Source: Pedobacter fastidiosus
GTDB lineage: Bacteria > Bacteroidota > Bacteroidia > Sphingobacteriales > Sphingobacteriaceae
Direction of reading: 5' to 3'
Assembly (NCBI RefSeq): GCF_014306625.1
Contig: NZ_JACRYL010000023.1
Coordinates: forward strand, 1-64,000
Length of the DNA: 64,000 nucleotides
Shown: positions 28,243-35,368 of the stretch, piece by piece
Layout: each line of letters starts with the position of its first letter
Position numbering within the stretch: the first letter of the stretch is position 1
Made by a program: the position numbers and the translations under genes
Notes under the pieces: model-generated
What the model saw: only the letters and a program-made list of their open reading frames with translations
The model's database searches: none
What the model was told of the DNA's origin: nothing

Positions 28243-28647
28243 ATGAAAACCTCTACTTTACCAAAATATAGATGCGCAATCATCGATGATGACCGCATGA
28301 CCGTTGATATTCTTAAAAACTATATTTCAAAAATTTCTAAGATCGAAACCATCCATGCTTTTACGGATCCATTACAGGCACTTAGTCAAATATCTGAAAA
28401 TGACTTAATTGATTTCCTTTTTCTTGATATTAGGATGGATATTTCGGGAATCGATGTGGCTAAAGTTCTTCGAAATAAAGTGAAATTTTTAATATTTGTA
28501 ACCAGCTATAAAGAATATGCGCTCGATGCTTTTTCAGTTGATTGCGATAAATACCTTGTTAAGCCTGTTCTTTTTCCTGATTTTTTAAATGCCATCAACG
28601 AGATTATAATTAAGGATAAAAAGCAGTCTAGAAAACCAGTTAAATAA
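28243..28647 (+). CDS. Response regulator, receiver domain only (LytTR-type receiver)
   Basis: The 134-residue protein has a receiver fold with the acidic cluster IDDDR, phospho-Asp in FLFLDIRMDISG, and Lys in DKYLVKPV. The pattern YALDAFSVDCDKYLVKP is typical of receivers that precede LytTR DNA-binding domains, but the protein stops about 20 residues later with no output domain. It must act by protein contact, or it is a shortened LytTR regulator. No kinase gene is adjacent. Confidence 0.85.
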   Translation: MKTSTLPKYRCAIIDDDRMTVDILKNYISKISKIETIHAFTDPLQALSQISENDLIDFLFLDIRMDISGIDVAKVLRNKVKFLIFVTSYKEYALDAFSVDCDKYLVKPVLFPDFLNAINEIIIKDKKQSRKPVK

Positions 28648-28790: not shown

Positions 28791-30176
28791 ATGAAACATT
28801 TTGATGCCATCATTATTGGTTCAGGGCAGGCAGGCGTTCCGCTCGCTAAAAAACTCGCTCTAGCCGGAAAGAAAACAGCAATAATTGAAAAAAAACATAT
28901 CGGCGGAACTTGCATAAATGTTGGTTGTACCCCAACTAAAGCAATGGTTGCTTCTGCAAGAGCTGTTTACCAAGCTAAAAGGGCAAATGAACTGGGGATC
29001 GAAATCCATGATATAAAAGTTAACCTCAAAAAAATAAAAAGCCGAAAGGATGGAATCGTCGAATCTTTTCGATCGTCTGCGCAGAAAGGTTTAGAGTCAA
29101 CAAAAGGGCTTAAAATAATTTTCGGTGAAGCCAGATTTTCAGCACCAAAAGAATTAACTGTTTTGGCTAGCGATGGCATTGAAGAGAAATTAACGGCCGA
29201 TTGGATTTTTATAGATACAGGTGCCAAAACAACTATTCCAGATCTAGACGGACTTTTAGAAGTAGATTATTTAACATCAACAACCATTCTTGATTTGGAA
29301 GAAATACCCAAACATTTGGTGGTTGTTGGTGGTAATTATATTGGGTTAGAATTTGGACAAATGTTTCGCCGTTTCGGAAGTAAGGTTACTATTCTAGAAA
29401 AATCTAAGCGCATTATGGGACGAGAGGATGAAGACATTTCTAACGAGATTAGTGAAATTTTTAAGGGTGAAGAGATAGATATTCTTACAGAAACCCAAAT
29501 TGTAAGGATTATTAAAAAACAGAAAAATCAACTTATTTTAGATGTTAAAGCTGGCAACCAAAATAAAAAAATAGAATGTAGCCACATATTGATCGCTACG
29601 GGAAGAACGCCACAAACTGAAAAATTAGGTTTAGAAATCGCAGGAATAAAAACCGATAAAAAGGGAAATGTTTTGGTAAACGAAAAATTGGAGACCAATG
29701 TTAAAGGGGTTTTCGCTTTGGGGGATGTAAAGGGTGGCCCCGCATTTACGCACATTGCCTATAACGATTACACAATTGTTTATCGTAACTTAATCGAAAA
29801 TACGAATTACACCATTTCTGATCGGCCAGTGCCATATTGTATGTTTACCGACCCACAATTAGGACGGATTGGTTTATCGGAAAATGAAGCAAAAGAAAAA
29901 GGATTAAATTATAAAGTAGCCAAAATTCCAATGTCGCAAGTGGCAAGAGGTATCGAAACAAATGAAACTTTGGGGATGATGAAGGCTATTGTGGATGCCG
30001 ACACTAAAAAAATTCTTGGCGCATCCATTCTTGCATCAGAAGGTGGCGAAATTATGTCGGTGCTCGAAATGGCGATGGAGGGCGGGATTACGTATGATCG
30101 GATTAGATATTGTGTTTTTGCGCACCCAACTTATTCCGAATCATTGAATAATTTATTCATGAAAATCGAAGATTAG
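28791..30176 (+). CDS. Mercuric-reductase-like flavoprotein disulfide reductase
   Basis: The 461-residue protein is a class I pyridine-nucleotide disulfide oxidoreductase. The FAD site is AIIIGSGQAG (8-17), the redox-active disulfide is CINVGC at about 43-48, a second GxGxxG-like site (VVVGGNYIGLEFG) binds NAD(P)H, and the active-site His-Glu pair is in AHPTYSE near the C-terminus. It lacks the N-terminal metal-binding domain and C-terminal Cys pair of true MerA, and no mer genes are near, so mercury is an unlikely substrate. It is the first gene of an operon with an ABC transporter, egtB and egtD. I infer that it may reduce ergothioneine disulfide or a related small disulfide. RclA-like copper reduction is an alternative. 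Confidence 0.88.
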   Translation: MKHFDAIIIGSGQAGVPLAKKLALAGKKTAIIEKKHIGGTCINVGCTPTKAMVASARAVYQAKRANELGIEIHDIKVNLKKIKSRKDGIVESFRSSAQKGLESTKGLKIIFGEARFSAPKELTVLASDGIEEKLTADWIFIDTGAKTTIPDLDGLLEVDYLTSTTILDLEEIPKHLVVVGGNYIGLEFGQMFRRFGSKVTILEKSKRIMGREDEDISNEISEIFKGEEIDILTETQIVRIIKKQKNQLILDVKAGNQNKKIECSHILIATGRTPQTEKLGLEIAGIKTDKKGNVLVNEKLETNVKGVFALGDVKGGPAFTHIAYNDYTIVYRNLIENTNYTISDRPVPYCMFTDPQLGRIGLSENEAKEKGLNYKVAKIPMSQVARGIETNETLGMMKAIVDADTKKILGASILASEGGEIMSVLEMAMEGGITYDRIRYCVFAHPTYSESLNNLFMKIED

Positions 30177-30183
30177 ATCAACA

Positions 30184-31146
30184 ATGATTGAATTAAAAAG
30201 CGTTAGTAAAAGTTTTGGAAATACACAGGCGGTAGATCAAATTTCTTTTAAGGTTAACGAGAAGGAGAATTTGGTTTTGCTTGGCACCAGTGGTTGTGGC
30301 AAAACAACTACGCTTAAAATGATCAACCGATTAATAGAACCAGATGCTGGAGAAATTATCATCAACGGAAAAGATATAACCAATCAAAATCCTGAAATTC
30401 TTCGCCGTGGAATTGGTTACGTAATGCAAAATATTGGTCTTTTTCCGCATTACAATATTGCTGAAAATATAGCAGTTGTACCCAAATTATTGAAATGGGA
30501 TAAAGAGAAAACCCATCAAAGGATTGCCGAATTAATTGAAAAACTTCATTTGCCAAATAATTGTTTAAAAATGTTTCCGCACGAATTAAGTGGCGGACAA
30601 CAACAACGGGTGGGTTTGGCTAGAGCATTGGTTACAGATCCTGCTGTGCTCTTAATGGATGAACCTTTTGGGGCGCTTGATAATGTAACTCGATCGAGCA
30701 TTCAAGCAGAATTTAAAGCTTTAGAAGAATTAAAACGGAAAACAATTGTAATGGTAACGCATGATGTTCAGGAAGCTTTTGAATTGGCAGATCGCATTTG
30801 CCTAATGGATAAAGGCGAAATTATCCAAATCGGAACCCCGAAAGATTTACTTTATAATCCTACAAATGATTTTGCAAGAAAATTTCTTGATGGGCAACGT
30901 TTGGCGCTTGAATTTAAAGTGATTACGCTCCAAGATCTTTGGGGTTTTCTGCCAGCAGATCAAATTTCAAATGGGGAAAAACCTTTAGATGCATCTTCAA
31001 ATATTTGGAATGCGATGGAAAATATTAGATCAACTTCCAATGGCAGAATTCGAGTTTCCAATACAAATAAAGAACAGAAATCGGTTGATTTTCAACAGTT
31101 AACCCAGGCATTTAATCAATACAAATACAATCATCACCATGAATGA
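30184..31146 (+). CDS. ABC transporter ATPase of the OpuC / EgtV type
   Basis: The 320-residue protein has Walker A (GTSGCGKTT, about 34-42), Q-loop (MQNIGLF), signature LSGGQQQR, Walker B (VLLMDEPFGALD) and the H-loop (VTHDVQEA). The sequence is closest to the quaternary-amine family (OpuCA/OsmV). The C-terminal 80 residues occupy the place of the CBS domains but look degenerate. It starts 7 bp after the flavoprotein gene and overlaps the permease gene by 8 bp. Homologues named EgtV power ergothioneine uptake in Helicobacter and Streptococcus. Linkage to egtBD supports ergothioneine or a betaine such as hercynine as cargo, which is inference. Confidence 0.9.
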   Translation: MIELKSVSKSFGNTQAVDQISFKVNEKENLVLLGTSGCGKTTTLKMINRLIEPDAGEIIINGKDITNQNPEILRRGIGYVMQNIGLFPHYNIAENIAVVPKLLKWDKEKTHQRIAELIEKLHLPNNCLKMFPHELSGGQQQRVGLARALVTDPAVLLMDEPFGALDNVTRSSIQAEFKALEELKRKTIVMVTHDVQEAFELADRICLMDKGEIIQIGTPKDLLYNPTNDFARKFLDGQRLALEFKVITLQDLWGFLPADQISNGEKPLDASSNIWNAMENIRSTSNGRIRVSNTNKEQKSVDFQQLTQAFNQYKYNHHHE

Positions 31147-32497
31147 GCAACAGCAAACTTTATGGGGTTTTATGTCTGAGCAATCGGATAAACTGCTGAA
31201 CCAGACCTTACAGCATCTCGGTTTAACATTTATTTCTTTACTTTTTGCCATTGCAATCGGTCTTCCTTTGGGAATTTTAATTGCTCGAAAGCGAAAACTC
31301 TCAACCGGTATTTTGGGCTTAGCAGGCATATTACAAACTGTTCCCAGCATTGCATTATTGGGGTTTATGATTCCCGTTTTGGGGATTGGTGCAAAACCGG
31401 CAATTGTAGCGCTGTTAATTTATGCTTTACTGCCAATTATTAGAAATACCTACACGGGCATTATTGGGATTGATCGGCATATTATTGAATCAGCAAGAGC
31501 GCTAGGAATGAGTAAAATGCAAATCCTTTTAAAAGTAGAATTGCCTTTGGCCATGCCAGTTATTCTTGCAGGGATTCGTACTGCAACTGTAATTAATGTG
31601 GGCGTGGCTACCTTAGCATCATATATTGCTGCAGGTGGATTAGGCGAATTTATTTTCGGAGGCATCTCACTCAATAATACCAATATGATTTTGGCAGGCG
31701 CAATTCCAGCCGCTTTATTGGCCGTCATTTTGGATTTCCTTTTATCAATCATCCAAAAAATGGATTTTAAAAAATTGAGAAAAGTACTGTATGTATTTCC
31801 CGTTCTGATTATTGTTTTGAGTGGATTTTATATTTTGCCATCGGCTTACAGTTCTAGACTCACTGCAGGCTTTACACCCGAATTTATGGGCAGGCAGGAT
31901 GGCGATTTGGGTTTGAAATCTGAATATGGACTTAAAATTCATACGATTGTGATTAGTGATGCCGTAATGTACAAAGCGGCCTATTCCAAAGAACTTGATG
32001 TAATTAGTGGATATTCTACAGATGGAAGGTTGAAGGCTTTTGATCTTAAAATTCTGAAAGATGATAAGGGGATTTTTCCTCCATATTATGCTGCGCCGAT
32101 TGTTAGAGAAACATCTTTAGAGAAATTTCCTGAGTTAGAAAAAGTGCTGAATCTCTTGTCGGGGAAAATTACCGATTCCATTATGACGGATTTAAATTAT
32201 CGAACAGATTATCTTCATCAGGCGCCAGAACGGGTTGCAAAAGATTTTTTAGTTAAGAATAAGTTATATAAGGATTCGAGAAATGGCCAAAATGGTACCG
32301 TAAGAATTGGCTCGAAAATTTTTGGAGAACAATATATTCTCGCCGAAATGTATAGCATGTTGATTAAGGGAAATACGGATTATAATGTTTCGACGAAAAC
32401 CGGTTTAGGTGGAACAAAAATCTGCTTCGATGCGCTGGTAAATGATCAAATAGATTTTTATCCAGAATATACCGGAACAGGACTTTTAGTGCTTTAA
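31139..32497 (+). CDS. ABC permease fused to a circularly permuted binding domain (EgtU/OpuC type), truncated by an in-frame stop
   Basis: The translated part is 452 residues. Residues 1-210 are a permease of the OpuCB type with about five to six membrane helices and an EAA-like loop (ESARALGMSKMQILLKVELP). After another membrane helix (216-234) comes a binding domain in swapped order. Residues 243-372 (AGFTPEFMGRQDG, FPPYYAAPIVR, SGKITD) match the middle and C-terminal part of OpuCC/ProX-type proteins. Residues 387-452 (RIGSKIFGEQYILAEMY, YPEYTGTGLL) match their N-terminal part. The frame is cut by TAA at 32495-32497, and 70 more family-like codons follow at 32498-32710. Family ligands are glycine betaine, carnitine or ergothioneine; the egt neighbours favour ergothioneine. 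Confidence 0.85.
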   Translation: MNEQQQTLWGFMSEQSDKLLNQTLQHLGLTFISLLFAIAIGLPLGILIARKRKLSTGILGLAGILQTVPSIALLGFMIPVLGIGAKPAIVALLIYALLPIIRNTYTGIIGIDRHIIESARALGMSKMQILLKVELPLAMPVILAGIRTATVINVGVATLASYIAAGGLGEFIFGGISLNNTNMILAGAIPAALLAVILDFLLSIIQKMDFKKLRKVLYVFPVLIIVLSGFYILPSAYSSRLTAGFTPEFMGRQDGDLGLKSEYGLKIHTIVISDAVMYKAAYSKELDVISGYSTDGRLKAFDLKILKDDKGIFPPYYAAPIVRETSLEKFPELEKVLNLLSGKITDSIMTDLNYRTDYLHQAPERVAKDFLVKNKLYKDSRNGQNGTVRIGSKIFGEQYILAEMYSMLIKGNTDYNVSTKTGLGGTKICFDALVNDQIDFYPEYTGTGLLVL

Positions 32498-32710
32498 CAG
32501 CCTAATCCAAAGCTTTCGAAAGAGATTGCGCATGATAAGGATCGAACCTATAATTATGTTAGCAAAGAATTCGAAAACAAATTCAAAATAAAGTGGTTAA
32601 AGCCCATAGGATTTAACAATTCTTATGCGCTTATGATGAGGCAAAAACAATCAAAAGCACTAAATGTTAATACCATAACAGACTTAACAAATTATCTAGA
32701 TAAAAATTAA
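32498..32710 (+). pseudogene. In-frame tail of the permease/binding-protein gene after the premature stop
   Basis: Directly after the TAA at 32495-32497 the same frame stays open for 70 codons and ends in TAA at 32708-32710. The encoded text (NYVSKEFENKFKIKWLKPIGF, NNSYALMMR) is the part that follows the YPEYTGTG motif in this binding-protein family, so it is the missing end of the same protein. Its stop overlaps the egtB start as TAATG, the mark of translational coupling, which shows where the gene originally ended. No start codon or ribosome site allows separate translation. One base change would explain the stop, for example TTA or CAA to TAA. Confidence 0.8.
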
Positions 32711-33858
32711 TGAATCTGGCAGAACACTATACTCAGATTAGGAAATATTCCGAAAAAATTTGTGCGCCATTAGCTACCGAAGATTATGTGGTTCAGCCGA
32801 TTGCGGATGTTAGTCCGCCGAAATGGCATTTGGGTCACACCACTTGGTTTTTCGAAACATTTGTTCTAAAACCAAATGTTACAGGTTATCAAGAATTTGA
32901 TGAGAATTACAATTACGTTTTCAATAGCTATTATGAAACTGTTGGCAACCGTGTAATTAGAACGGATAGAGGAAATTTAAGTCGACCGAGCGTGGCTGAT
33001 ATTTACAAATACAGGGCTTATGTTGATGAAGCAATGGTGAAATTTTTAGCTCAGCCAATTGATGGCGAGCTAAAAGAATTGATCACCCTCGGTTTTAACC
33101 ACGAACAGCAACACCAAGAACTTTTAATTACAGATATTAAATACATTTTAGGAAACAATCCTCTTTTTCCTGCTTATGATGATCATTGGAAAGAAGATTC
33201 TTCGATAAGAAATGAAAATGATTTTGTGACTATTGAAGAAGGGGTTTATGAAATTGGTTATCAGGGCGATGACTTTCATTTTGATAACGAACTCAATCGA
33301 CATAAAGTTTACTTAAACGAATTTTCCATCAGCACAGCTTTAGTTAATAACGCCGAATATTTAGAATTTATAAATGCTGGTGGCTATCAAAATTTTAATT
33401 ATTGGCATGCCGAGGGTTGGGATTGGGTAAAAACAAACAGCATTTCTGCACCAATGTATTGGCATTTAATTGATGGTGGGTGGTTTAATTATACGTTTGC
33501 TGGTTTAAAAGTTTTAGATAAAAATCTAGCTTTAAGTCACATTAGTTATTACGAAGCTTATGCTTTTGCGAGCTGGAAAGGCATGAGATTACCAACAGAA
33601 TTTGAATGGGAAATTGCTGCAGAACACTTTAATTGGGGGCAGCGATGGGAGTGGACGGAAAGCGCATATTTACCATATCCAGGTTTTAGTAAGGCACCGG
33701 GAGCAATCGGTGAGTACAATGGAAAATTTATGGTTAATCAGAAGGTATTGCGAGGTGCATCTATCGCCACACCAGAAAATCACAGTCGCGTTACTTACCG
33801 CAATTTTTTTCACCCAAATTTAAGATGGCAGTTTACGGGCATTCGCCTGGTTAAATAA
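32710..33858 (+). CDS. egtB: Ergothioneine biosynthesis sulfoxide synthase EgtB
   Basis: The 382-residue protein has an N-terminal DinB-like helical domain and a C-terminal formylglycine-generating-enzyme (FGE) fold, the EgtB architecture. The iron-binding triad is visible as His 43 in WHLGH and His 131 / His 135 in FNHEQQHQE. The FGE part shows MRLPTEFEWEIAA, WEWTES and the ending FTGIRLVK. EgtB joins a sulfur donor to hercynine with oxygen. No egtA or egtC is linked, so cysteine may be the direct donor, as in some bacterial and fungal enzymes; that is inference. The OvoA-type C-terminal methyltransferase is absent. Its ATG overlaps the stop of the preceding transporter gene, and egtD starts 8 bp later. 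Confidence 0.92.
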   Translation: MNLAEHYTQIRKYSEKICAPLATEDYVVQPIADVSPPKWHLGHTTWFFETFVLKPNVTGYQEFDENYNYVFNSYYETVGNRVIRTDRGNLSRPSVADIYKYRAYVDEAMVKFLAQPIDGELKELITLGFNHEQQHQELLITDIKYILGNNPLFPAYDDHWKEDSSIRNENDFVTIEEGVYEIGYQGDDFHFDNELNRHKVYLNEFSISTALVNNAEYLEFINAGGYQNFNYWHAEGWDWVKTNSISAPMYWHLIDGGWFNYTFAGLKVLDKNLALSHISYYEAYAFASWKGMRLPTEFEWEIAAEHFNWGQRWEWTESAYLPYPGFSKAPGAIGEYNGKFMVNQKVLRGASIATPENHSRVTYRNFFHPNLRWQFTGIRLVK

Positions 33859-33866
33859 TCAAATTT

Positions 33867-34841
33867 ATGAGCACGATTACTACTGAAACAACAACAAACA
33901 AAATACAATTTTTGGAAGAAACGTTAATCGGTTTAAAAGCCGAACCAAAGTTTATGCATTCCAAATATTTCTACGATGAAAAAGGCGATTACATCTTCCA
34001 GCAGATTATGAATATGGAGGAATATTACCTAACCGATGCAGAAATGGATATTCTTTCCAACCAAACCAGCGAACTTGTGCAGGTGATTTCTGCCCAGGGA
34101 GATGCTTTTGATTTGATTGAGCTTGGTGCTGGCGATGCCACAAAATCCATTCATCTATTGAAAGAATTAATCGATCAAAAGCATGATTTTACCTATTTTC
34201 CCATCGATATTTCTGAACACGTAATTTCAGATTTAGAGCAAAATCTTCCCTTGAAACTTCCTGAATTGAGTATGCAAGGATTAAATGGAGACTACTTTGA
34301 AATGCTTAAACGGGCAACAGAACTATCCAAAAGGAGAAAAGTAGTATTATTTATGGGCGCAAATATTGGCAACATGAATGTGGAAGATGCTCGTAATTTT
34401 TGCATTGAATTGAAAAATGTACTTTCAGAAAATGATATGTTAATTGTCGGTTTCGATTTAAAGAAAAATCCACAACAAATTCTCTCCGCATATAATGATC
34501 AGGAAGGCATAACACGTTCCTTTAATTTAAATCTTCTCCAAAGAATAAATAAGGAACTAGATGGAAACTTCAATCTGGAAAATTTTGAACACTATGCATT
34601 CTATGATCCAGAATCTGGTGCCTGCAAAAGTTACCTGATTAGTCTTAAAAATCAACAGGTAAAAATCGGTGAAACTGAAGCCATCAGCTTTGGAGAAAAC
34701 GAGTATATTTTTATGGAAATCTCTCAGAAATATTCGTTGAAAGAAATCGATCATCTTGCAAAATCTTCGGGCTTTAAATTGCTTACCAACTTTTTTGATG
34801 ATAAAAGCTATTTTGTAGACTCCGTTTGGACGATTAATTAA
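33867..34841 (+). CDS. egtD: L-histidine N-alpha-methyltransferase EgtD
   Basis: The 324-residue protein shows EgtD family features: the substrate-pocket opening KYFYDEKGDYIFQQIMNMEEYYLTDAE, SAM-binding ELGAGDATKS, the DISEHVI strand and FMGANIGNMN. It converts histidine to hercynine with three SAM-dependent methylations, the first committed step of ergothioneine synthesis; the product is the EgtB substrate. It follows egtB by 8 bp in the same operon. A desulfurising lyase (EgtE) is not in this window and may be encoded elsewhere. Confidence 0.93.
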   Translation: MSTITTETTTNKIQFLEETLIGLKAEPKFMHSKYFYDEKGDYIFQQIMNMEEYYLTDAEMDILSNQTSELVQVISAQGDAFDLIELGAGDATKSIHLLKELIDQKHDFTYFPIDISEHVISDLEQNLPLKLPELSMQGLNGDYFEMLKRATELSKRRKVVLFMGANIGNMNVEDARNFCIELKNVLSENDMLIVGFDLKKNPQQILSAYNDQEGITRSFNLNLLQRINKELDGNFNLENFEHYAFYDPESGACKSYLISLKNQQVKIGETEAISFGENEYIFMEISQKYSLKEIDHLAKSSGFKLLTNFFDDKSYFVDSVWTIN

Positions 34842-34897: not shown

Positions 34898-35368
34898 ATG
34901 GAAAAAGAAATATTAATAACCGAACTGAAAAAACTTTTAATTGGTGGTACTGCGCATGTAGGTTTAAAAGATGCCCTTGCAGATTTACCTTTTGAATTGC
35001 TGGGTGAAAAACCACATAACCTGCCTTACAGTATTTGGCAGTTAACAGATCATATTAAAATTGCCCAGTGGGATATGCTTGAGTTTAGTAAGGATGCAAA
35101 CCATAAATCGCCTAAATGGCCCGATGAATATTGGCCGAAAGAAACCGCACCAAAAGATAAAGAAACTTGGGAAGCGACCGTTAAACAGATTGATGATGAC
35201 CTAAAAAAATTCATCAAAATAATAGAATCTGAAGATCTTTTTGAGCCAATTCCGCATGGCGATGGACAAACCATTTTGAGAGAAGCCTTTCAAGTTGCTG
35301 ATCATAACGCTTATCACATTGCCGAAATTATTGTAATTAGGCGATTATTGGGAGCTTGGAAAAGTTAA
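34898..35368 (+). CDS. DinB-superfamily protein
   Basis: The 156-residue cytoplasmic protein is a four-helix DinB-like domain. His residues in WQLTDHIKIAQ and in DHNAYHIAEIIV are the usual metal ligands of the fold. DinB proteins include thiol-dependent S-transferases that use bacillithiol or mycothiol. Its place 56 bp after egtD suggests it may be the last gene of the operon, possibly a thiol-linked enzyme; this is inference. The gap is longer than others in the operon, so an independent promoter is possible. Confidence 0.85.
   Translation: MEKEILITELKKLLIGGTAHVGLKDALADLPFELLGEKPHNLPYSIWQLTDHIKIAQWDMLEFSKDANHKSPKWPDEYWPKETAPKDKETWEATVKQIDDDLKKFIKIIESEDLFEPIPHGDGQTILREAFQVADHNAYHIAEIIVIRRLLGAWKS

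Follow-up and report, generated by a model that had tools for sequence, protein, structure and literature searches.

The window analysed in this study is a 64,000-nucleotide stretch of the Pedobacter fastidiosus genome (contig NZ_JACRYL010000023.1, positions 1 to 64,000), and it contains a five-gene operon on the forward strand in the order flavoprotein, ProV-like ATPase, EgtU-like permease with binding domain, egtB and egtD. The first gene occupies 28791-30176 (+), exactly the open reading frame that had been called, and encodes a flavoprotein disulfide reductase of 461 aa. After a gap of 7 bp it is followed by the gene for a ProV/OpuA-type ABC ATPase of 320 aa (30184-31146, +; PF00005, and TIGR01186 with 309.6 bits against a cut-off of 326.6), which overlaps by 8 bp with the gene for an EgtU-like permease fused to an OpuAC-type binding domain (31139-32497, +; PF00528 and PF04069). 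This permease-SBP gene is shortened by an in-frame TAA at 32495-32497 (+), where relatives have a sense codon. Beyond it the frame stays open across 32498-32710 (+), and the final TAA of this ancestral frame overlaps the egtB start by 1 bp. EgtB (32710-33858, +; 382 aa) passes the TIGR03440 cut-off of 360 with 539.7 bits and is separated by 8 bp from an EgtD-family histidine methyltransferase (33867-34841, +; 324 aa), which scores 319 bits with PF10017 (cut-off 23) and 278 bits with TIGR03438, just short of the cut-off of 290.9. A stand-alone response-regulator receiver-domain gene lies at 28243-28647, 143 bp upstream of the flavoprotein gene, and is kept in the two closest relatives, with none seen further out. 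The gaps of 7-8 bp and the overlaps downstream, together with this separate gene upstream, bear out the original prediction that the flavoprotein gene leads an egt operon; the ABC importer of EgtU/OpuA type, which accounts for two of the five genes, and its TAA had gone unmentioned. A Bacteroidota-type promoter (TTTG-N-TANNTTTG) was not found upstream of the operon and this pattern was not above chance across the window, and scans for sigma-70 promoters and terminators gave fewer matches than in shuffled sequence. A DinB_2-domain protein is encoded after egtD (34898-35368 of the window), and homologues of it occur close to the operon in other Pedobacter and in Chitinophaga; EgtB also contains a DinB_2 domain. 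For EgtE the host genome gave generic matches only (56 and 37 bits against an equivalog cut-off of 400), and the same model also matches in 14/14 control genomes.

The 461-aa protein is an intact class I flavoprotein disulfide reductase, with FAD and NAD(P) Rossmann motifs, a CxxxxC motif and a His-Glu dimerisation domain. Its FAD motif is G10-S-G12-Q-A-G15, its redox pair C41-INVG-C46 lies inside GGTCINVGCTPTK (28902-28940, +), the NAD(P) site is found around G180-G-N-Y-I-G185, and the proton-relay pair His445/Glu450 sits in HPTYSE (30123-30140, +). Both PF07992 and PF02852 were matched in a Pfam profile search, the catalytic residues were invariant when 41 relatives were aligned, and AlphaFold2 with those 41 relatives returned a complete GR-type fold with a pLDDT of 93. 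The earlier description of the redox cysteines, the FAD and NAD(P)H sites and the His-Glu pair as intact is thus borne out. It was equally right about two features of mercuric reductases that are missing: there is no NmerA domain at the N-terminus, the FAD domain beginning at residue 2, and there is no C-terminal Cys pair, the protein ending in SESLNNLFMKIED. The predicted structure superposes at Z 44-47 on mercuric reductases, RclA, Har and lipoamide dehydrogenases alike, so that comparison with PDB structures left MerA, RclA and lipoamide dehydrogenase unseparated. The other full-length GR-like matches in the host genome are two lipoamide dehydrogenases, and there is also one short partial match.

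None of the listed NCBIfam equivalog cut-offs was reached by the flavoprotein. PRK06370 ranked first (NF004992; 545 bits, cut-off 629), followed by lipoamide dehydrogenase, RclA, MerA and HOSCN-reductase MerA, and a classical Bacteroidota member of PRK06370 from the sister subfamily scored 758.9 bits with that model. PRK06370, a family whose activity is not established, shares CxNxGCTPTK, Gln13, Tyr183, Gln190, Arg194, His265, Tyr324 and Glu389 with the flavoprotein, but the flavoprotein has NNLF instead of IPTML at its C-terminus and its clade has a strong link to egt genes. A tree built from 135 proteins put the flavoprotein and its relatives together in one group, to which E. coli RclA and a Leuconostoc homologue are sister; MerA, Lpd and Gor branched outside it, and the deepest joins are uncertain given the long branches. 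The nearest characterised group in this tree comprises RclA of E. coli, Har of S. pneumoniae and MerA of S. aureus, which have in common with the flavoprotein the GR-type fold, the CxxxxC motif, the His-Glu pair, the lack of both NmerA and the C-terminal Cys pair, and a likely preference for NADH. The label MerA-like is loose: the likeness is to the flavoprotein disulfide reductase superfamily at large, and MerA is not the closest relative, RclA/Har and PRK06370 being nearer.

This placement brings up an alternative, in which the protein is an RclA/Har-type reductase of HOSCN, HOCl products or Cu(II) that shares an oxidant-defence operon with the egt genes and does not act on ergothioneine. 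RclA is the nearest solved relative (37% identity in the structural alignment, Z 46-47) with Har close, RclA and the Leuconostoc homologue are the sister group, and the segments FT-H/Y-I...D and SESLN-N/D-LF are common to the flavoprotein and RclA/Har. However, two active-site lysines are common to Har, RclA and S. aureus MerA, are proposed to help bind OSCN- and set HOSCN reductases apart from GR and TrxR (PMC11107202), and this pair is missing here. At the site of Har K13/K16, codons 13-17 of the flavoprotein (28827-28841, +) read Q-A-G-V-P. Gln13 and Pro17 are fixed in 119/119 core subfamily members, and position 16 is variable, with Lys in 7/119. Scores with the RclA and HOSCN-MerA models NF040477 and NF041853 were also far below the cut-offs (387.9 of 740 and 377.1 of 650 bits), and oxidant defence leaves unexplained why the gene is lost together with EgtB and the importer inside one genus. 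Membership of the RclA/Har family was rejected on the absent lysine pair and the missed cut-offs. The flavoprotein, RclA-like in build, should thus be classed neither with the HOSCN reductases nor with the mercuric reductases, and this alternative is considered unlikely.

A role as mercuric or other metal-ion reductase is far less probable still. The protein does score 380.8 bits with the MerA model TIGR02053, and it superposes at Z 47 on Lysinibacillus and Tn501 MerA, which is the same level as for lipoamide dehydrogenases; the catalytic core fold and the CxxxxC motif are shared. Against this, the score is below the cut-off of 454.45, the NmerA domain and the C-terminal Cys pair are absent, and the MerA reference lies outside the flavoprotein group in the tree. 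The absence of merR/T/P genes claimed earlier holds for the operon, in which none of the genes is a mer gene; a genome-wide search for MerT, run with no positive control, found none. MerA membership was accordingly rejected on the missing Cys pair, the missed cut-off and the lack of mer context, and annotations as 'mercuric reductase' in this subfamily are probably wrong. Most plasmid-borne matches are ordinary merA. Glutathione or mycothiol reductase was likewise rejected on missed cut-offs: models NF004776, NF005884 and TIGR03452 gave 300, 309 and 275 bits, and where the scores came to about 300-310 bits, 480 and 501 would have been required. Those enzymes share the fold, the redox motif and the His-Glu pair and have a role analogous to the one proposed below, but there is no glutathione or mycothiol context around the flavoprotein.

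Comparison across genomes shows that the flavoprotein is tied to genes for ergothioneine synthesis and probable import in many soil-type Bacteroidota. In a sample of 201 genomes from the same family, with the flavoprotein called at E below 1e-100, it was present in 76/201 genomes, and 74 of these 76 carriers also had EgtB and 71 the importer; two carriers lacked EgtB. The flavoprotein and EgtB genes lay within 10 kb of each other in 60/74, always on the same strand and 2.5-3.2 kb apart, usually 2.5, and in the other 14 genomes EgtB was unlinked yet co-occurring. The sampled genomes are not independent and P values drawn from them are therefore too strong, a problem that is lessened by comparison within a genus. 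In Pedobacter, EgtB was found in 22/23 flavoprotein carriers vs 1/13 non-carriers and the importer in 22/23 vs 0/13, so that within this genus flavoprotein, EgtB and importer come and go together. In the phylum outside the family, where some matches come from the classical PRK06370 group, which is more distant, EgtB was present in 22/29 flavoprotein carriers compared with 104/384 genomes overall, and the flavoprotein was found in 1/272 genomes having neither EgtB nor an importer homologue. When 79 flavoprotein loci from a separate collection were inspected, 49 had flavoprotein, ATPase and permease/SBP in succession and 45 the full five-gene order, which was found in exactly this form in Pedobacter, Mucilaginibacter, Olivibacter, Chitinophaga, Flavihumibacter and Dyadobacter. 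Other arrangements included adjacent flavoprotein, EgtB and EgtD genes in a Spirosoma-type genome, the order EgtD-flavoprotein-ATPase-permease-EgtB in one genome (G099), and, in one Acidobacterium, an EgtB above the TIGR03440 cut-off 88 bp downstream of the flavoprotein. The 'egt-linked' state requires at least 10 changes on the tree of 135 proteins, and gain or loss of linkage to egt genes has therefore happened repeatedly. In the wider subfamily (Ktedonobacteria, Rubrobacter, Zixibacteria, a further family in the Bacteroidota sample, Deinococcus) the gene mostly does not adjoin egt genes, and among 28 genomes with unlinked or non-Bacteroidota copies an EgtB-like match was seen in 18, above the cut-off in only 12. 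The original prediction had proposed an ergothioneine-linked role and had asked whether homologues neighbour the egt genes. For the Bacteroidota clade they mostly do, and it is very probable that the flavoprotein is functionally tied to the ergothioneine system.

The original prediction also proposed, as one possible substrate, a mixed disulfide formed in EgtB chemistry, and on this point the data are less supportive. Among EgtB-positive genomes of the family, the flavoprotein was found in 71/76 with the importer and 3/25 without it, and among EgtB-positive genomes of the phylum outside the family the corresponding figures were 17/36 and 5/68. As the flavoprotein tracks the importer among genomes that all have EgtB, recycling of the ergothioneine pool is favored over a step in EgtB chemistry. 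Additionally, 22 EgtB-positive genomes of the family have neither importer nor flavoprotein, and ergothioneine synthesis therefore does not require the flavoprotein. These counts also bear on another reading, in which the flavoprotein carries out the last biosynthetic step and reduces ergothioneine sulfenic acid after a C-S lyase has cleaved the sulfoxide product of EgtB. The gene is in an operon with egtB and egtD, and the EgtE reaction on the sulfoxide gives the sulfenic acid, from which a reductant is needed to obtain ergothioneine (PMC4493562). HOSCN and ergothioneine sulfenic acid are both HO-S-C(N) species, which makes an RclA-like active site chemically plausible for the sulfenic acid. 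However, EgtB-positive genomes without the importer mostly lack the flavoprotein, importer-positive genomes without EgtB often carry it (6/8, mostly from one genus), and the sulfenic acid step is also possible by cellular thiols. A biosynthetic role is thus rated a little below oxidant defence and is doubtful.

The importer itself is EgtU-like, with ergothioneine as a candidate ligand, judging from its sequence. With an intact relative as query, the best PDB sequence match of the binding domain is S. pneumoniae EgtUC, but the two halves are swapped: residues 240-378 of the relative correspond to EgtUC 138-276 and residues 388-518 to EgtUC 8-134. These swapped halves are conserved across Sphingobacteriales, Chitinophagales and Cytophagales, and SBP-permease fusions in other Bacteroidota keep the ordinary half order. 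A similar domain dislocation is known in OpuA/OpuAC proteins, and the predicted importer model matches OpuA along its length, with low confidence in the membrane part of the model. Like EgtUV of S. pneumoniae and H. pylori, the system combines a permease-SBP fusion with an ATPase and retains carboxylate and most cage residues (K242, T296, R379, N339, Y341, Y443 and Y419, intact relative compared with EgtUC); it differs from EgtUV in its swapped halves and in being operonic with egtB/egtD. The three published determinants of ergothioneine specificity in SpEgtU are missing, G244, F293 and Y337 being replaced by the betaine-type residues Phe, Tyr and Phe, invariant in an alignment of 22 relatives, and for this reason ergothioneine counts as a candidate ligand. 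In the focal strain, the TAA at 32495-32497 ends the permease-SBP protein after 452 of some 523 residues; among complete relatives almost every one has 515-550 aa. This is either a recent loss or a sequence error. One other genome (G013) has a permease-SBP gene with a different in-frame TAA.

The replaced specificity residues lend some weight to a further possibility, that the flavoprotein reduces another low-molecular-weight or mixed disulfide (for example of cysteine, CoA or an imported betaine-thiol) in cells that use ergothioneine. Its fold and motifs would fit any disulfide of the class. However, the operon shows no link to any other thiol pathway and, as noted above, the glutathione and mycothione reductase cut-offs were missed, and this possibility is judged improbable, ranking after the biosynthetic one.

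Since operon structure and shared presence and absence tie the flavoprotein to the egt and importer genes, it is a good candidate for an ergothioneine recycler. There is about an even chance that it reduces oxidised ergothioneine, as disulfide or sulfenic acid, a substrate suggested by the company the gene keeps. The fuller proposal, of a distinct subfamily (GxGQxGxPL ... CxNxGCTPTK ... FTHxxYxD ... HPTxxESLNNLF) dedicated to NADH-dependent recycling of ergothioneine beside a permuted EgtU-like importer, is put forward slightly more tentatively. According to this model, the protein would be a homodimeric GR-type FAD enzyme of the ergothioneine system in which electrons pass from NAD(P)H, probably NADH, through FAD to the C41-C46 disulfide. 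The exposed Cys41 would then attack the sulfur of oxidised ergothioneine, either the disulfide or the preceding sulfenic acid, and ergothioneine would leave as the stable thione, analogous to the release of thiocyanate from HOSCN in Har. Cys46 would resolve the mixed disulfide, with H445' and E450' as the proton relay. This order of chemical steps is inferred by homology with GR and Har. NADH is the probable cofactor because strand 2 of the NAD domain ends in an acidic residue, E203, as it does in RclA, which prefers NADH. No betaine-binding cage was identifiable among the conserved residues beside the flavoprotein disulfide.

For glutathione, mycothiol and bacillithiol alike, a flavoprotein reductase is known or has been proposed. 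The physiological role of ergothioneine is still under debate, and in the literature covered the one enzyme found to recycle it directly is mammalian selenocysteine thioredoxin reductase; the term 'ergothioneine disulfide reductase' was not found, which is weak evidence given that most subscription journals were outside the search. The mammalian enzyme reduces both ergothioneine disulfide, directly, and 5-oxo-ergothioneine, and glutathione reductase acts on ergothioneine disulfide only through GSH (PMC8868364). The reaction on the disulfide is the same as the one proposed for the flavoprotein, but the C-terminal selenocysteine arm is absent from the flavoprotein and its TGR-type score is 177 bits. 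By its genomic ties, the flavoprotein is a good candidate for the bacterial enzyme, missing so far, that would turn oxidised ergothioneine back into its active form. If this is true, it would be the bacterial counterpart, for ergothioneine, of glutathione and mycothione reductase, and a bacterial enzyme genomically tied to egtB/egtD and an importer makes ergothioneine cycling in cells directly testable.

Two further gene associations were seen at these loci. DUF427 (PF04248) has the look of a family associated with ergothioneine. No copy was found in the host genome, and a literature search, in which most subscription journals fell outside and which is therefore weak evidence, found nothing joining DUF427 to ergothioneine. 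A DUF427 gene lies directly upstream of the flavoprotein gene in 21/79 loci (for example L087:6309-6587), and other Bacteroidota also have DUF427 in the stretch from EgtD to the importer ATPase region. A conserved block of five genes (clusters c9 and c14-c17) stands before the operon in Dyadobacter, seen at six loci.
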